A stretch of 64,000 bases of DNA, taken from NCBI GenBank assembly GCA_016866335.1, contig VGMT01000007.1:1-64000 (forward strand), written 5' to 3'. A model generated the notes under the pieces. That model searched no databases, was not told where the DNA came from, and saw only the letters and a program-made list of their open reading frames with translations. A program made the translations under genes and the position numbers. The DNA is from Bacteroidota bacterium. GTDB lineage: Bacteria > Bacteroidota > Bacteroidia > CAIKAF01. Of this stretch, positions 14,218-36,404 are shown in pieces (position 1 is the stretch's first letter; every line of letters starts with the position of its first letter).

Positions 14218-14736
14218 TTAGGCAATTGCTTGAGGATCAGCTAGTGAAATGGCAACTTGTTTGCGAGCAAGGAAGATCCTGCTTTTAATTGTACCGATAG
14301 GAAGGTTGAGTTCATCCGCAATTTCTTTGTACTTAAAACCTTCAAAATACATTTTCAGGGGAACTCTGAAATCTTCGCTAAGGGCATTCATTTCGGAATA
14401 AATTTCATTGTATCGGTAAGCCGACTCTGGATTGAAAGAATCTTTAGAGGATTGGGGCAATTCGGCTTGACCCACATCCGTGCCAAGGTCAACAATGCTT
14501 CTAAATTTAATTGAACGCCGGTAGTTGTTAATAAATATGTTTCGAAGGATGGTGTAAAGCCATGCTTTGAGGTTGGTGTCGGGCTGAAAACGATTTTGGT
14601 GCATGAACGCTTTTAACATGGTTTCTTGAACCAAATCATTGGCTTCTTCAACATTGGAGGTAAGGCTGAGAGCGTAGTAGCGAAGTTGTTCGCGGTAGGC
14701 TACCACGTCTGATGAAAAGGAGTTTGTAGAAGCCAT
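14218..14736 (-). CDS. Sigma-70 family RNA polymerase sigma factor (second of a tandem pair)
   Basis: A 172-residue group 4-like sigma factor: region 2 at about 10-80 (SNVEEANDLVQETMLKAF and AWLYTILRNIFINNYRR) and region 4 at about 115-165 (YFEGFKYKEIADELNLPIGT). It is a close paralogue of the gene immediately upstream (14813-15349); both share the phrase YFEGFKYKEIAD and SRIFLARKQ, pointing to tandem duplication. No anti-sigma gene is adjacent. Its 76-bp leader holds GTTTAAAG and GTTAAAC sites like those in front of its neighbours. The ATG at 14736 is chosen since upstream residues are not sigma-like. Together with the CarH-like gene it probably belongs to a light-responsive circuit. Confidence 0.9.
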   Translation of the reverse strand: MASTNSFSSDVVAYREQLRYYALSLTSNVEEANDLVQETMLKAFMHQNRFQPDTNLKAWLYTILRNIFINNYRRSIKFRSIVDLGTDVGQAELPQSSKDSFNPESAYRYNEIYSEMNALSEDFRVPLKMYFEGFKYKEIADELNLPIGTIKSRIFLARKQVAISLADPQAIA

Positions 14737-14745
14737 AGTGCAATT

Positions 14746-14774
14746 GTTTAAAGTAAAAGTAGTATAAGTTAAAC
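14746..14774 (-). promoter_or_regulatory. Candidate operator: GTTTAAAG and GTTAAAC pair
   Basis: GTTTAAAG (14746-14753) and GTTAAAC (14768-14774) start 22 bp apart in the leader of the second sigma gene. The same heptamer occurs in the leaders of the first sigma gene and the CarH-like regulator. No exact TAnnTTTG box is visible here (nearest TACTTTTA). Confidence 0.4.
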
Positions 14775-14812
14775 AGAATCCAAATTTTTGTTGAATTATT
14801 TTGACATAAAAT

Positions 14813-15349
14813 TCAACAATCTTTTTCGGGAATGGAGGTTGATGAGCGCAATTCACCCAAGGGGGCTTGGAGTTGTTTGCGGGCGAGGAAAATACGGCTT
14901 TTAATGGTGCCCAGAGGAAGCTGCATAATATCTGCAATTTCTTTGTATTTAAAACCTTCGAAATAAAGGTTAAGGGGCACTTTATACTCATCGTCCAAGC
15001 GTTCGACGGCCGCAGTAATTTCTTGGACTTGGTACATGGTTTCTGGGTAGGAACCTTTTGGAGATTCGAGTTTTACTAAGCCTTTTCCCTCAGGGCTTTC
15101 GTCTGAAACGGTTTGATTTCTGCTTTTTCTTCGGTATTCATTGATGAAAATATTCTTCATGATGGTGCATAGCCACCCTTTCAAGTTTGTATTTTCTAGG
15201 TATCTATTTTTATACAATAAAGCCTTTAAAAAGGTTTCCTGAAGAAGGTCTTCAGCGTCTGCTTCATTTTTGGTCAGGCTTAAGGCAAAAAAGTACAAAG
15301 GTTGCTTAAGGCCGAGAAGTTGAAAATCAAAAGAGGTTTTTGCTTCCAT
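14813..15349 (-). CDS. Sigma-70 family RNA polymerase sigma factor (first of a tandem pair)
   Basis: A 178-residue sigma factor with region 2 (ADAEDLLQETFLKALLYKNRY and GWLCTIMKNIFINEYRRK) and region 4 (LNLYFEGFKYKEIADIMQLP). It is co-oriented with, and 115 bp downstream of, the CarH-like regulator and 76 bp upstream of its own paralogue. In Bacteroidota a MerR-B12 regulator beside a sigma factor commonly precedes carotenoid genes; here no crt gene follows, and a second sigma is present instead. The start ATG at 15349 overlaps a GTTTAAC site. A hairpin (TTGTTGAAT at 14788-14796 with ATTCAACAA at 14811-14819) covers the gene's 3' end. Confidence 0.9.
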   Translation of the reverse strand: MEAKTSFDFQLLGLKQPLYFFALSLTKNEADAEDLLQETFLKALLYKNRYLENTNLKGWLCTIMKNIFINEYRRKSRNQTVSDESPEGKGLVKLESPKGSYPETMYQVQEITAAVERLDDEYKVPLNLYFEGFKYKEIADIMQLPLGTIKSRIFLARKQLQAPLGELRSSTSIPEKDC

Positions 15350-15412
15350 GTTTAACTTTTGTGCTTCAAAGTTAAACAAAAAGTGTTTAACAAAAAACAA
15401 AAATCGTTAAAC
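15350..15412 (-). promoter_or_regulatory. Promoter with four GTTTAAC/GTTAAAC sites
   Basis: Four copies: 15350-15356, 15371-15377, 15385-15391 and 15406-15412. They form two pairs, each with 21-bp (two-turn) start-to-start spacing. A -7 box TAACTTTG (minus strand, 15367-15374) overlaps the second site, so a bound protein would block RNA polymerase. I infer an operator for the CarH-like regulator encoded just upstream; no binding data exist here. Confidence 0.55.
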
Positions 15413-15464
15413 AAAGGCGAAATTGCCTATGCTTGGGAAGGGAAATGAGATAAGAAGTTGAGGT

Positions 15465-16358
15465 TCAGGAAAGCGTTTCGAGGAGCTCGGTTAGGCTTTC
15501 TATGGAAGGTAAATGCAACGTTTCTGGATTCAGGTCATTTTTTATCTCCAAAGCCAATGGGCCGCAAATACAAAGGGTGGTATTTGGAAATGCGTCTTGC
15601 ATTTGTTTAATGTAGGTTTTGGTTTTTTTGACTCCCTGCCCCAAGGTAAAATAGGTTAAGAATTTATGGGGATTGTAATCTTTAGAAACAGCAATTAAAT
15701 CGGGTAGAGGAACGGATTGTCCCAAGTAAAGAATGGGAAACCCGCGGAGCCGAATAATGTACTTGGCAAACAACAGGCCAATTTCATGCAATTCACCATC
15801 GGGTAAAAACAAGATAAAACGGGTGTTTTTGTTTGTTTTACCAATATGGGCATCGATGGCTACGATTAATTTTCGGCGTATCAAATTGGTTATAAAATGT
15901 TCTTGGGCCACATTGATTTCACCGGTACTCCACAACATTCCAACCTTTTGGAGGAAAGGCACAATTAGCCGAATCATCACGTTTTCAAAACCGTATCGGA
16001 TAGCACCGCTGGCAATCACTTTTTCAAAATGGATTTCGTCAAGGTCTAACATAGCTACGACGAGAGCATCGATTTGAACATCGAAGAAATCTCCTTCTGA
16101 AGAGGTTTGATGTGCCAGGCGTTCTAGTTCATTGCGAATTTCTGGGGTGCTCAGTTTTGAAATTTGGGAGATTCGACGGCCATTTTTAATGAGAACACTG
16201 ATGTTGAGCAGTGTTTTCAAATGTTGATCGTTGTAATATCGGATGTTTGTTTCGGTGCGATGGGGTTCAATAAATTGGTACCTCTGCTCCCAAATACGAA
16301 TAGTATGGGCTTTAATTCCCGTTATTCTTTCTATGTCCTTTATGCTATATTTGCCCAC
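15465..16358 (-). CDS. CarH/LitR-type MerR regulator with cobalamin-binding (light-sensing) domain
   Basis: A 297-residue repressor-type regulator. MerR winged helix at 1-72 (YSIKDIERITGIKAHTIRIWEQRY); cobalamin cap helix bundle at about 90-170; Rossmann-like B12 domain at about 175-295. The cap has the W-x9-EH signature of AdoCbl photoreceptors (Trp143, Glu153, His154), and the B12 loop is ELHEIG (ExHxxG form of DxHxxG, His191 as predicted lower ligand). The residue after the Trp is Ser, where Thermus CarH has the His that forms the light-state adduct. The start is GTG at 16358. The 58-bp leader contains two GTTTAAAC palindromes. Known relatives repress carotenoid and photoprotection genes in the dark and release DNA in light; that role is inferred here. 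Confidence 0.9.
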   Translation of the reverse strand: MGKYSIKDIERITGIKAHTIRIWEQRYQFIEPHRTETNIRYYNDQHLKTLLNISVLIKNGRRISQISKLSTPEIRNELERLAHQTSSEGDFFDVQIDALVVAMLDLDEIHFEKVIASGAIRYGFENVMIRLIVPFLQKVGMLWSTGEINVAQEHFITNLIRRKLIVAIDAHIGKTNKNTRFILFLPDGELHEIGLLFAKYIIRLRGFPILYLGQSVPLPDLIAVSKDYNPHKFLTYFTLGQGVKKTKTYIKQMQDAFPNTTLCICGPLALEIKNDLNPETLHLPSIESLTELLETLS

Positions 16359-16367
16359 AATAAAACC

Positions 16368-16407
16368 GTTTAAACTACAACACTCTCACCCCAATAATTG
16401 TTTAAAC
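16368..16407 (-). promoter_or_regulatory. Candidate autoregulatory operator: two GTTTAAAC palindromes
   Basis: GTTTAAAC at 16368-16375 and again at 16400-16407, 32 bp (about three helical turns) apart, between the metK stop and the GTG start of the CarH-like gene. They match the sites in front of both sigma genes, which suggests autoregulation. Confidence 0.5.
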
Positions 16408-16416
16408 GATTAAGAT

Positions 16417-17685
16417 TTACTGGATAGCGGCGCGGATAGAATCGACCAAATCGAGTTTTTCCCAGGTAAATAATTCCACCTGTTTTACGATAGGATTTGA
16501 ATTGGGAACAGGGAAAGATTTGGTGATGGTTTCAGGTTGCCTTCCCATGTGGCCATAGGCTGCGGTTTCCTGATAAATTGGGTTTCGAAGTTTCAATTTG
16601 GTTTCAATGGTATAGGGAGTCATGTCAAAAATAGCCAGTAGGCGTTCCGCAATTTGGCTATCGGATACCTTAACTTTAGAGGTTCCGTAGGTATTGACGT
16701 AAAGATTCATGGGTTGTTTTACTCCGATGGCGTAAGCTACCTGCACCAAGACCTCGTCGCAAATACCAGCAGCGACCAAATTTTTTGCCAAGTATCGGGC
16801 TGCATAGGCTGCAGATCGGTCAACCTTACTGGGGTCTTTCCCTGAGAATGCTCCACCCCCGTGAGCACCTTTTCCACCGTAGGTATCCACGATGATTTTA
16901 CGTCCAGTCAGGCCGGTATCTCCATGGGGACCGCCGATAACGAATTTTCCTGTGGGATTGATATGGTAAACAATATTTTCGTCAAAGAAGCTGGCGTATT
17001 GGCTGTATAGCGTTTTGACTCTCGGCATGACGTGGTCTAGGACATCTTGTTTGATTTTGGCCAACATAACCTTTTCGTCGGGGTCAAAATCGTCGTGTTG
17101 AGTTGAAATAACGATAGCCTGAATTCGTTTGGGTTTATTGTCGTCGCCGTATTCTAGGGTAACTTGCGATTTTGAATCGGGTCTAAGATAGGGCATGGGG
17201 CTGTTTTCCATACGGCGCAATTCGGCCAAAACCTTTAAAAGGGCATGGGACATATCCAAAGCGAGGGGCATGTAGTTGGCCGTTTCGTTGGTGGCATAGC
17301 CGAACATCATACCTTGGTCGCCGGCGCCTTGGTCTTCAGGGTTACCGCGGTCAACCCCTTGTCTAATATCACCAGATTGCTCATGGATGGCTGAAAGGAC
17401 GCCGCAAGAGTGTGCCTCAAACATATATTCGCTTTTGGTGTAGCCGATTTTGGCAATTACACCACGGGCAATTTCTTGAACATCTAGATAGGCGGAGGAA
17501 TGCACTTCGCCCGCCAAAACTACTTGACCAGTAGTAACCAAGGTTTCACAGGCTACTTTTGAATGGGGGTCTAAAGCGAGGAAATGGTCAATGATTGCAT
17601 CGGAAATTTGGTCGGCTACTTTATCGGGATGGCCTTCGCTCACAGATTCAGAGGTGAAATAATAGGGCATGATTTCAATTTTCAT
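16417..17685 (-). CDS. metK: S-adenosylmethionine synthetase
   Basis: A 422-residue enzyme making S-adenosylmethionine from methionine and ATP in the cytoplasm. It has [21 protein letters not shown] at the N-terminus, the [13 protein letters not shown] signature, [18 protein letters not shown] and [19 protein letters not shown]. Length fits the family. A TATATTTG promoter box ends 5 nt before the ATG at 17685; an alternative ATG at 17670 (MPYYFTSES) is also common in relatives. No SAM riboswitch is visible in the short leader. Confidence 0.97.
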
Positions 17686-34655: not shown

Positions 34656-36404
34656 TTATTTGATGAAAGGAATGGCTACGCGAGCGTTTTCACCAGTCAA
34701 AGTTAAGAAATACTGACCTGATGAAAGGCTGCTCATGTTGACCGAGATGCTGTTGTTGCCTTCGGTCAATGCAACGTTGCCAAACTTAGCAACTTCGCGA
34801 CCCAATCCGTTTACTATGCTCATTTCGGCATTGAAAGAACGGGTTGAAACGAAGGTCAAGGTTGAAACTTCGTTCACTGGGTTTGGAAACAAATTCATTT
34901 GGCTTAGACCGCTTGCGCTTTCCAATGACATTACAGGAGTCAATTCTACCAAATTTCCGCCGTTAGGGAAGGCAACCCACAAACCGAAAGGCTGTAAATT
35001 GGTTACGTTTTCGTCGTTAGGTGTTAGGAAGCCTGTTGCAAAAATGGTAAGACCAAGACCAGACAACGAAGTCAGCGGAGCTGCAAATGTAGCCACAGTG
35101 GTGTTGTTGTCGTTGGCAGGAGTAATACGGATTTGACCATCGGCAATGGTAGGGATAGGCAGATAACCTTGGTATTCGCCGAAGCTGATGTCGTTTACCA
35201 AAACGCTGCCAGTAGAACCAACGGCATCAACCATAGGAGCGTCAGGTGAATGGTGGAATACAGCGATGCTTACTGTGGTTGGACTGATTGACCAAGGACG
35301 CGAATTAGGAAGTACATCCAATCCGAAGGCTACGTTGCTGCCGTTTACACTAACCGAATGCGCAAAATTGGTTCCGCTTGTGTTGGCTAATCCCGCTGCA
35401 ACCACTTGATAGGTTGTATTTCTTGCCAACGATGCAGGAATTTTAACCAATGCACCTAGAGTGTCGGTTGTGTTTGGAGCCGAAAACAACACACGGTAGT
35501 TGCCAGAAGGAATCAACAAATATGGGGTAGCTTGCAAGTAGCCTACGTTGTTGAATGGAACAACAGCACCGGTTGAAGTTACCACGTCAATGTCAACGGC
35601 GGCAACCATTGGGTCTGGTGAATTATGTACAATTTGAATGCGGCTAGCATCGGTTTGTGGCAATGCCAATACGGTTCCATCAACCAAAGCTACAAACAGG
35701 CCAAAGGCTGGTTCTCCCATTGCTGGAGTCAATTTTCCAGAGGCAAAAACCACCCCGGCAGCGCCACCGGCGTTCAATGTAGCCAAAGGAATACCAAAGC
35801 CTTCAACCATGGTGTTGAAATCGGTGGCCGGAGTCAACAACGACAGCAAATCAGAGGCGGGCAACGAAGCCTGGCCAGAAAATGCGCCAAAAGCCAAGGA
35901 AGAAACAGCTGGAGTTAGGGCGTTCAGATTGGTGAAAACAGCTACTGCAGGAGCATCGGTGCTGCCATGGAAGATGTTTACATCAAAATTGTTTGAGCTT
36001 CCTGCTGTTAAAGCACCGGTTCCGAAAAACAGGTTAAATGGATGAGTCATGCTACCAACCTCGCCTGCAGCAACTGCCACATACGAAGAACCTGCGGTTA
36101 GGGTAGGAAGAGCAAACGATACCAAGGTGTCGTTGATGGTGGTACCCACACCGAACTCAGGAGCTACCGCTACACGGGCGTTGGTTAAACCTCCAGGCAC
36201 CTGCAAATAGGTTGTGGCTGCGCGGAAAGAAAGGTTGTCAATCAATGGATTGGAAGTAAAACCAGAGCCCAAGTCAACGTAGATATCTACGGTAGCCGCC
36301 GCTGGAGTTGGACAGTTATGAATAATTTGCACATTGGCATTTTGAGCCTGAGCAACCACGATTGTGGAAGCAACGGCCAACATCGAAAGAAATTGTTTTT
36401 TCAT
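34656..36404 (-). CDS. Secreted protein with four DUF4397 repeats and a T9SS sorting domain
   Basis: A 582-residue protein: signal peptide (1-20, STIVVAQAQ), then four tandem DUF4397-type beta domains that each start with a phrase like VQIIHNCP, VNIFHGSTDAP, IQIVHNSPDP or IAVFHHSPDAP (near 25, 140, 255 and 385), and a type A sorting domain (about 495-582, MNLFPNPVNEVSTL to GQYFLTLTGENARVAIPF). The repeats resemble cell-surface adhesin-like modules of unknown ligand. It is strongly Ala/Thr/Val biased, as expected for secreted structural proteins. It is followed by a strong terminator, suggesting abundant expression from its own promoter. Confidence 0.9.
   Translation of the reverse strand: MKKQFLSMLAVASTIVVAQAQNANVQIIHNCPTPAAATVDIYVDLGSGFTSNPLIDNLSFRAATTYLQVPGGLTNARVAVAPEFGVGTTINDTLVSFALPTLTAGSSYVAVAAGEVGSMTHPFNLFFGTGALTAGSSNNFDVNIFHGSTDAPAVAVFTNLNALTPAVSSLAFGAFSGQASLPASDLLSLLTPATDFNTMVEGFGIPLATLNAGGAAGVVFASGKLTPAMGEPAFGLFVALVDGTVLALPQTDASRIQIVHNSPDPMVAAVDIDVVTSTGAVVPFNNVGYLQATPYLLIPSGNYRVLFSAPNTTDTLGALVKIPASLARNTTYQVVAAGLANTSGTNFAHSVSVNGSNVAFGLDVLPNSRPWSISPTTVSIAVFHHSPDAPMVDAVGSTGSVLVNDISFGEYQGYLPIPTIADGQIRITPANDNNTTVATFAAPLTSLSGLGLTIFATGFLTPNDENVTNLQPFGLWVAFPNGGNLVELTPVMSLESASGLSQMNLFPNPVNEVSTLTFVSTRSFNAEMSIVNGLGREVAKFGNVALTEGNNSISVNMSSLSSGQYFLTLTGENARVAIPFIK

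Follow-up and report, generated by a model that had tools for sequence, protein, structure and literature searches.

A MerR-B12 regulator gene of an aquatic member of the Bacteroidota probably encodes a CarH-like, AdoCbl-based photoreceptor-repressor that controls two local sigma factor genes and a distant rhodopsin-blh operon. This reading is drawn from features of the nt and aa sequences, i.e. the identities of the genes, a recurrent inverted repeat (the candidate operator), its association with the regulator, its overlap with a promoter box of the first sigma gene, and its presence before the rhodopsin gene. The source genome is 2.45 Mb in 62 contigs and is 99% complete; the window, which is the whole 64,000-nucleotide stretch that was analyzed, is on contig C7. 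The genome was screened by sequence pattern and through the stretches around the matches. The genes of the locus are as follows.

16417-17685, minus strand: metK, directly upstream of the regulator gene and separated from it by a 58-bp gap (16359-16416).
15465-16358, minus strand: CarH-like MerR-B12 regulator, 297 aa, GTG start, with MerR_1 and B12-binding_2 domains.
14813-15349, minus strand: sigma1, ECF-type sigma-70 factor, 178 aa, with regions 2 and 4.
14218-14736, minus strand: sigma2, ECF-type sigma-70 factor, 172 aa, with regions 2 and 4.

The regulator and sigma genes are all on the minus strand, thus the regulator is 5′ of sigma1 and sigma2 despite its higher coordinates. An earlier note on this DNA described a MerR-B12 regulator with the W-x9-EH signature followed by two co-oriented, paralogous sigma-70 genes, and domain matches, strand and an identity of 76 of 171 residues between the two sigma sequences bear this out. 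Both sigma sequences score above the cut-offs of PF04542, PF08281 and TIGR02937 (the ECF superfamily model). No anti-sigma gene, a common though not essential neighbor of ECF sigma genes, is found beside them; the transcription unit ends there and the next gene is convergent. The note also stated that pigment genes are absent nearby, and no crt, photolyase or rhodopsin homologue is present in the 64 kb window. Genes of the first two kinds are present elsewhere in the genome: crtZ-crtI-crtB-crtY is on contig C44 and photolyases are on contigs C16 and C12. At one photolyase locus (L155:5522-8921) phrB photolyase, a gene encoding some 195 aa and one for a cryptochrome/photolyase-related protein adjoin one another, and the order of the two photolyase-type genes is retained in relatives of the genus.

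Among 295 Bacteroidia genomes, 187 encode the regulator. The merR-sigma-sigma order is kept in all six genomes of the genus that were examined, so that loss of the order in relatives, which the earlier note gave as grounds for refutation, was not observed. The note also asked how common the double-sigma form is. It is present in these six genomes, whereas in the remaining genera of the family, and at most Bacteroidia loci elsewhere, a single sigma gene or none adjoins the regulator. The view that a single sigma gene beside such a regulator marks a crt cluster holds in part. Some regulator-sigma pairs do have crt genes downstream (Chitinophagaceae and others), however pairs free of crt genes are common in Bacteroidia, and the isolation of the present locus from crt genes is therefore ordinary in this class.

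The regulator displays the adenosyl-capping Wx9EH signature as W143-x9-E153-H154, and all three residues are invariant in 74 homologues. The lower-ligand motif, of the D/ExHx2G type, is E189-L-H191-E-I-G194, where E189 and H191 are invariant in the homologue alignment. The spacing of the rest of the B12 motif (x41-SxT/V-x22-27-GG) fits, with T238 and G266 kept; S is replaced by Y and the second G by P (Y-F-T, G-P). Pfam analysis shows PF13411 and PF02607 above cut-off and PF02310 below it (19.2 vs 32.1). The AlphaFold model has a pLDDT of 90.9 and its top PDB matches are all Thermus CarH, with similarity over the full-length fold (5c8e, E = 3.2e-16). By fold and photoreceptor residues the protein appears to be a relative of the CarH/LitR-type B12 photoreceptors, and it is predicted to be a light sensor. 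A supply of AdoCbl is plausible, given that an adenosyltransferase gene is present in the genome.

The position of His132 of Thermus CarH is occupied by Ser144 in the regulator and a His is absent there in 74 of 74 homologues; the only invariant histidines of the cobalamin domain are those of the EH motif and of the lower ligand. In Thermus CarH, His132 is the light-state ligand (bis-His), and without it most of the protein is tetrameric in the light, although an earlier report of disassembly of His132-less CarH is also mentioned (PMC10442372). The mechanism of photorelease must thus differ from that of Thermus CarH. In the putative light release either another ligand replaces His132 or bis-His ligation is not needed. 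The regulator scores 121.4 bits against the NCBIfam CarH equivalog NF052513, where the curated cut-off is 400 bits. Because of this low score, the missing His132 and the inverted operator described below, it is named here a CarH-like variant and not a CarH equivalog.

The sequence TGTTTAA-N16/17-TTAAACA recurs upstream of the sigma genes and is the candidate operator. The earlier note had mentioned sites of the GTTTAAC type; these exist and are the key feature of the system. The arms are symmetric, with T/A flanks on both sides, and form a true inverted repeat. The half-site TAAACA agrees with the TnnACA core of the CarH repeats but occurs as an inverted pair, whereas the characterized CarH operators are tandem 11-bp direct repeats, nAnnTnnACAn (PMC8156234, PMC9304148). 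The inverted operator is new here. A looser direct-repeat pattern, TGTTTAA-N10-20-GTTTAA, gave two matches, neither of them at the genes considered here.

When spacers of 0-40 were counted in the regulator loci, a few of which were counted twice (once from each collection), N16 was found at 93 sites and N17 at 41, with 0-10 sites at each other length. Among 60 sigma genes, from which identical proteins had been removed, 58 have at least one upstream site with no more than one mismatch, compared with about 0.4% in resampled sequence, and 38 have two or more. Doubled operators are mostly about 35, 44 or 55 bp apart, which is consistent with location on one face of the helix. The extended exact form, TTGTTTAA-N16/17-TTAAACAA, is found 200 times in the 295 genomes vs 8 times for the reversed control pattern. 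It is present in 116 of 187 genomes that have the regulator and in 3 of 108 that do not (Fisher p ~1e-27, with genomes treated as independent). The sites in the window are as follows.

15384-15413, minus strand: operator distal to sigma1, TGTTTAAC-N14-GTTAAACA, with N16 between the 7-mers, exact.
15349-15378, minus strand: operator proximal to sigma1, N16, exact; its final base coincides with the A of the ATG.
15367-15374, minus strand: TAACTTTG, which matches the Bacteroidota -7 box TANNTTTG, inside the proximal sigma1 operator at offset +4.
14745-14775, minus strand: operator before sigma2, N17, exact, conserved in three relatives (G028, G105 and casp15).
16368-16375: GTTTAAAC palindrome upstream of the regulator, in the metK gap.
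16400-16407: second GTTTAAAC palindrome upstream of the regulator, in the metK gap.

TTG...TANNTTTG is the flavobacterial promoter consensus (PMC3587595). Among 61 sigma promoters, 12, one of them that of sigma1 in the window, have the -7 box starting exactly four bases inside the proximal operator, and this is the commonest offset. The position of the box inside the operator suggests occlusion of RNA polymerase. The two GTTTAAAC palindromes are possible autoregulatory half-sites. As a case for autoregulation the pair was rejected; it does not have the operator spacing, and a proper site is found before merR in only 5 of 73 relatives.

Four exact operators are present in the 2.45 Mb genome, two at sigma1, one at sigma2 and one at a rhodopsin gene; three further sites with one mismatch are all within reading frames. 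The rhodopsin locus is at the following positions.

C38:19022-19785 (L264:11002-11786): rhodopsin gene including its operator, just to the left of position 1 of the window.
C38:19755-19785: rhodopsin operator, exact, 32 bp before the start codon.

The rhodopsin is of the light-driven proton-pump type; its sequence matches Bac_rhodopsin PF01036 with 148 bits and displays the D-T-E helix C motif RYVDWLLTVPLMCVE and a Met at the colour-tuning position. The gene for blh (beta-carotene 15,15′-dioxygenase) follows in a rhodopsin-blh operon. Comparison with G028 and G105, in both of which rhodopsin and regulator are on one contig, shows that the end of contig C38 abuts the start of the window, which places rhodopsin about 16 kb from the regulator. 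The rhodopsin site is present with one or no mismatch in 5 of 5 genus genomes searched. Farther upstream than the rhodopsin operator, some 120-150 bp ahead of the start of the gene, two directly oriented TTAAAC half-sites are also conserved in this genome (L264) and in G028 (L266). Among the 30 best-scoring Bacteroidia rhodopsin loci, 14 have a site with at most one mismatch and 16 do not, vs about 0.5% in resampled sequence. Of the 62 genomes with a rhodopsin, 61 encode the regulator, vs 126 of 233 others, figures that are uncorrected for habitat and ancestry.

In other genomes operators precede crtZ, crtI, merR, folE, 6-pyruvoyl-tetrahydropterin synthase, fasciclin and DUF4397 genes. Of these, crtZ, crtI, merR, folE and 6-pyruvoyl-tetrahydropterin synthase are kinds of gene expected in a light regulon. 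Operators before GTP cyclohydrolase I (folE) or 6-pyruvoyl-tetrahydropterin synthase-like genes (L253/L270:5971, L236:2124, L234:1502 and L276:6316) indicate that pterin synthesis looks to be part of the same regulon. An operator is also located upstream of a four-domain fasciclin protein (L277:6191 in G095, and L263). The DUF4397 gene of the window (34656-36404, minus strand) encodes a protein with a T9SS tail, and similar proteins in six other genomes (L235, L239, L241, L242, L247 and L249) have an exact operator upstream; an exact site of the family is also present in G198. The window gene was rejected as a target: its best match of the right spacing has three mismatches and lacks conservation within the genus.

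The earlier note proposed a search for GTTTAAC sites near photolyase and crt genes and a relay that acts in trans with sigma outputs. The search yielded the sites at sigma1, sigma2 and rhodopsin, and direct control of the crt and photolyase genes of this genome by the CarH-like regulator was rejected, as those loci have no site at two or fewer mismatches. Any light response of these genes would therefore have to run through the sigma factors. Action in trans agrees with the sites at distant genes, but the relay does not appear to be through sigma factors only: operators at both sigma promoters and at rhodopsin-blh point to an output beyond them, with rhodopsin as a candidate direct target. A comparison by eye of the crt and photolyase upstream regions gave no convincing motif for a sigma-specific promoter. 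A short TTTTTTGTTA stretch is conserved shortly before crtZ in three genomes of the genus, at L153 (upstream of 7413), L156 (5715) and L157 (11800), and could be a sigma1/sigma2 promoter element.

The inverted repeat could instead be read as a promoter recognized by the neighboring ECF sigma factor, with TGTTTAAC as -35 element, the N16/17 spacer and TTAAACA as -10 element, such that the sigma factor activates its own gene and drives rhodopsin directly. The spacer of 16-17 nt is promoter-like, the sites are just before sigma and rhodopsin genes, and AAC is common in ECF -35 elements. A true inverted repeat with symmetric flanks is however as expected for a dimeric binder, its arms carry the CarH half-site core, the site is often doubled at the spacings given above, and it is found before merR or crtI in loci where no sigma gene adjoins (L237 and L041). 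This promoter reading is thus considered unlikely. A role in activation, as in classical MerR proteins, instead of repression is considered very unlikely. Membership of the MerR family is in its favor, as is TTG-N19-TANNTTTG in some loci, a long spacer typical of MerR-activated promoters; but the operator covers the -7 box itself, and all characterized CarH proteins repress in the dark (PMC9304148, PMC8156234).

The signal may also be cobalamin, or the B12-methionine-SAM state, and not light, since the regulator gene sits directly after metK on the same strand at a distance of 58 bp. CarH binding requires B12 and His132 is missing, which would also fit. On the other hand the region upstream of the regulator differs in G250 and G274, where the metK end present in the window, G105, G028 and casp15 was not found. 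The adenosyl-capping W and EH are invariant in the 74 homologues, and the candidate targets (rhodopsin-blh, crt and folE) point to light and not to methionine. A cobalamin sensor is accordingly rated improbable, and control by light is retained as the preferred reading.

The two sigma outputs proposed in the earlier note stand as two sigma genes, although separate outputs are doubtful. In region 4.2 the sigma1 and sigma2 sequences are identical at 23 of 28 positions and the GTIKSRIFLARKQ -35 recognition helix is the same in both, so that recognition of the same promoters by the two is quite possible. The second sigma gene would then be a dosage duplicate with no output of its own, which has a little under an even chance; this would deny only the two outputs and is compatible with the photoreceptor-repressor reading. 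Against simple duplication, the linker is identical at only 15 of 54 positions and each sigma gene has its own operator. In the gene tree sigma2 forms one clean orthologue group within the genus, but sigma1 of the subclade that includes the window is on a long, fast-evolving branch (1.19 changes per column), with sigma1 of G250 and G274 less diverged. Sigma1 also looks to be under purifying selection much as merR is (dN/dS of 0.058 for sigma1 between G028 and G105, and 0.042 for merR between G105 and the window), where dS is near saturation and the ratios are therefore only a rough sign.

In the preferred reading, which by analogy with CarH supposes binding of the operator, repression by that binding and release in light, the AdoCbl-loaded regulator would in the dark bind the inverted half-sites over the housekeeping promoters of sigma1 and sigma2. 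It would also occupy the site before the rhodopsin-blh start codon and block transcription. Light would break the Co-C bond of AdoCbl and the regulator would leave the DNA, allowing synthesis of rhodopsin, of the enzyme for cleavage of beta-carotene to retinal and of both ECF sigma factors. The sigma factors would then drive more light-response genes in trans, possibly including crt and photolyase genes.

For the class Bacteroidia as a whole, chances appear evenly balanced that a His132-less CarH variant with an inverted operator couples rhodopsin phototrophy, carotenoids, pterin synthesis and sigma factors to light, together with B12 supply, with a mode of release that differs. Rhodopsin control would be directly testable in any cultured relative, now that an operator and a candidate B12 photoreceptor are at hand. 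If the proposal is true, it could account for the way in which light harvesting is switched on in these bacteria, and light harvesting would depend on the supply of vitamin B12. Photorelease in this CarH family must, moreover, proceed by means other than the known bis-histidine switch. In the literature covered, which takes in few subscription papers, no paper was found that joins a CarH/LitR B12 photoreceptor with control of a bacterial rhodopsin; the description of MliR of Bizionia, a MerR-like Bacteroidota regulator, mentions neither CarH nor cobalamin.

The system shares with Thermus thermophilus CarH (LitR), its best structural match, the MerR DNA-binding domain, the four-helix and Rossmann cobalamin domains, Wx9EH, ExHxxG and the TnnACA half-site core. 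Unlike it, the present regulator (about 27% identical) does not have His132, its operator is an inverted pair where that of Thermus consists of tandem 11-bp direct repeats, and its candidate targets are sigma factors and rhodopsin in place of an adjacent crt operon. Myxobacterial CarH/CarA provide a parallel for dark repression over a promoter and for variable operator design (PMC9304148). There, however, the crt operon is repressed directly and the ECF sigma factor CarQ belongs to a separate, anti-sigma-controlled pathway (PMC8156234). The clusters of MerR-B12 regulator, single sigma factor and crt genes in Bacteroidota (e.g. Chitinophagaceae, L089-L115) are similar in regulator and sigma families, gene order and operators, but have one sigma gene with crt directly downstream. 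Flavobacterial proteorhodopsin-blh operons display the same DTE pump motif, Met at the colour-tuning position and adjoining blh; control of rhodopsin expression in Dokdonia was stated as unresolved (PMC3587595), whereas here a candidate regulator is identified.
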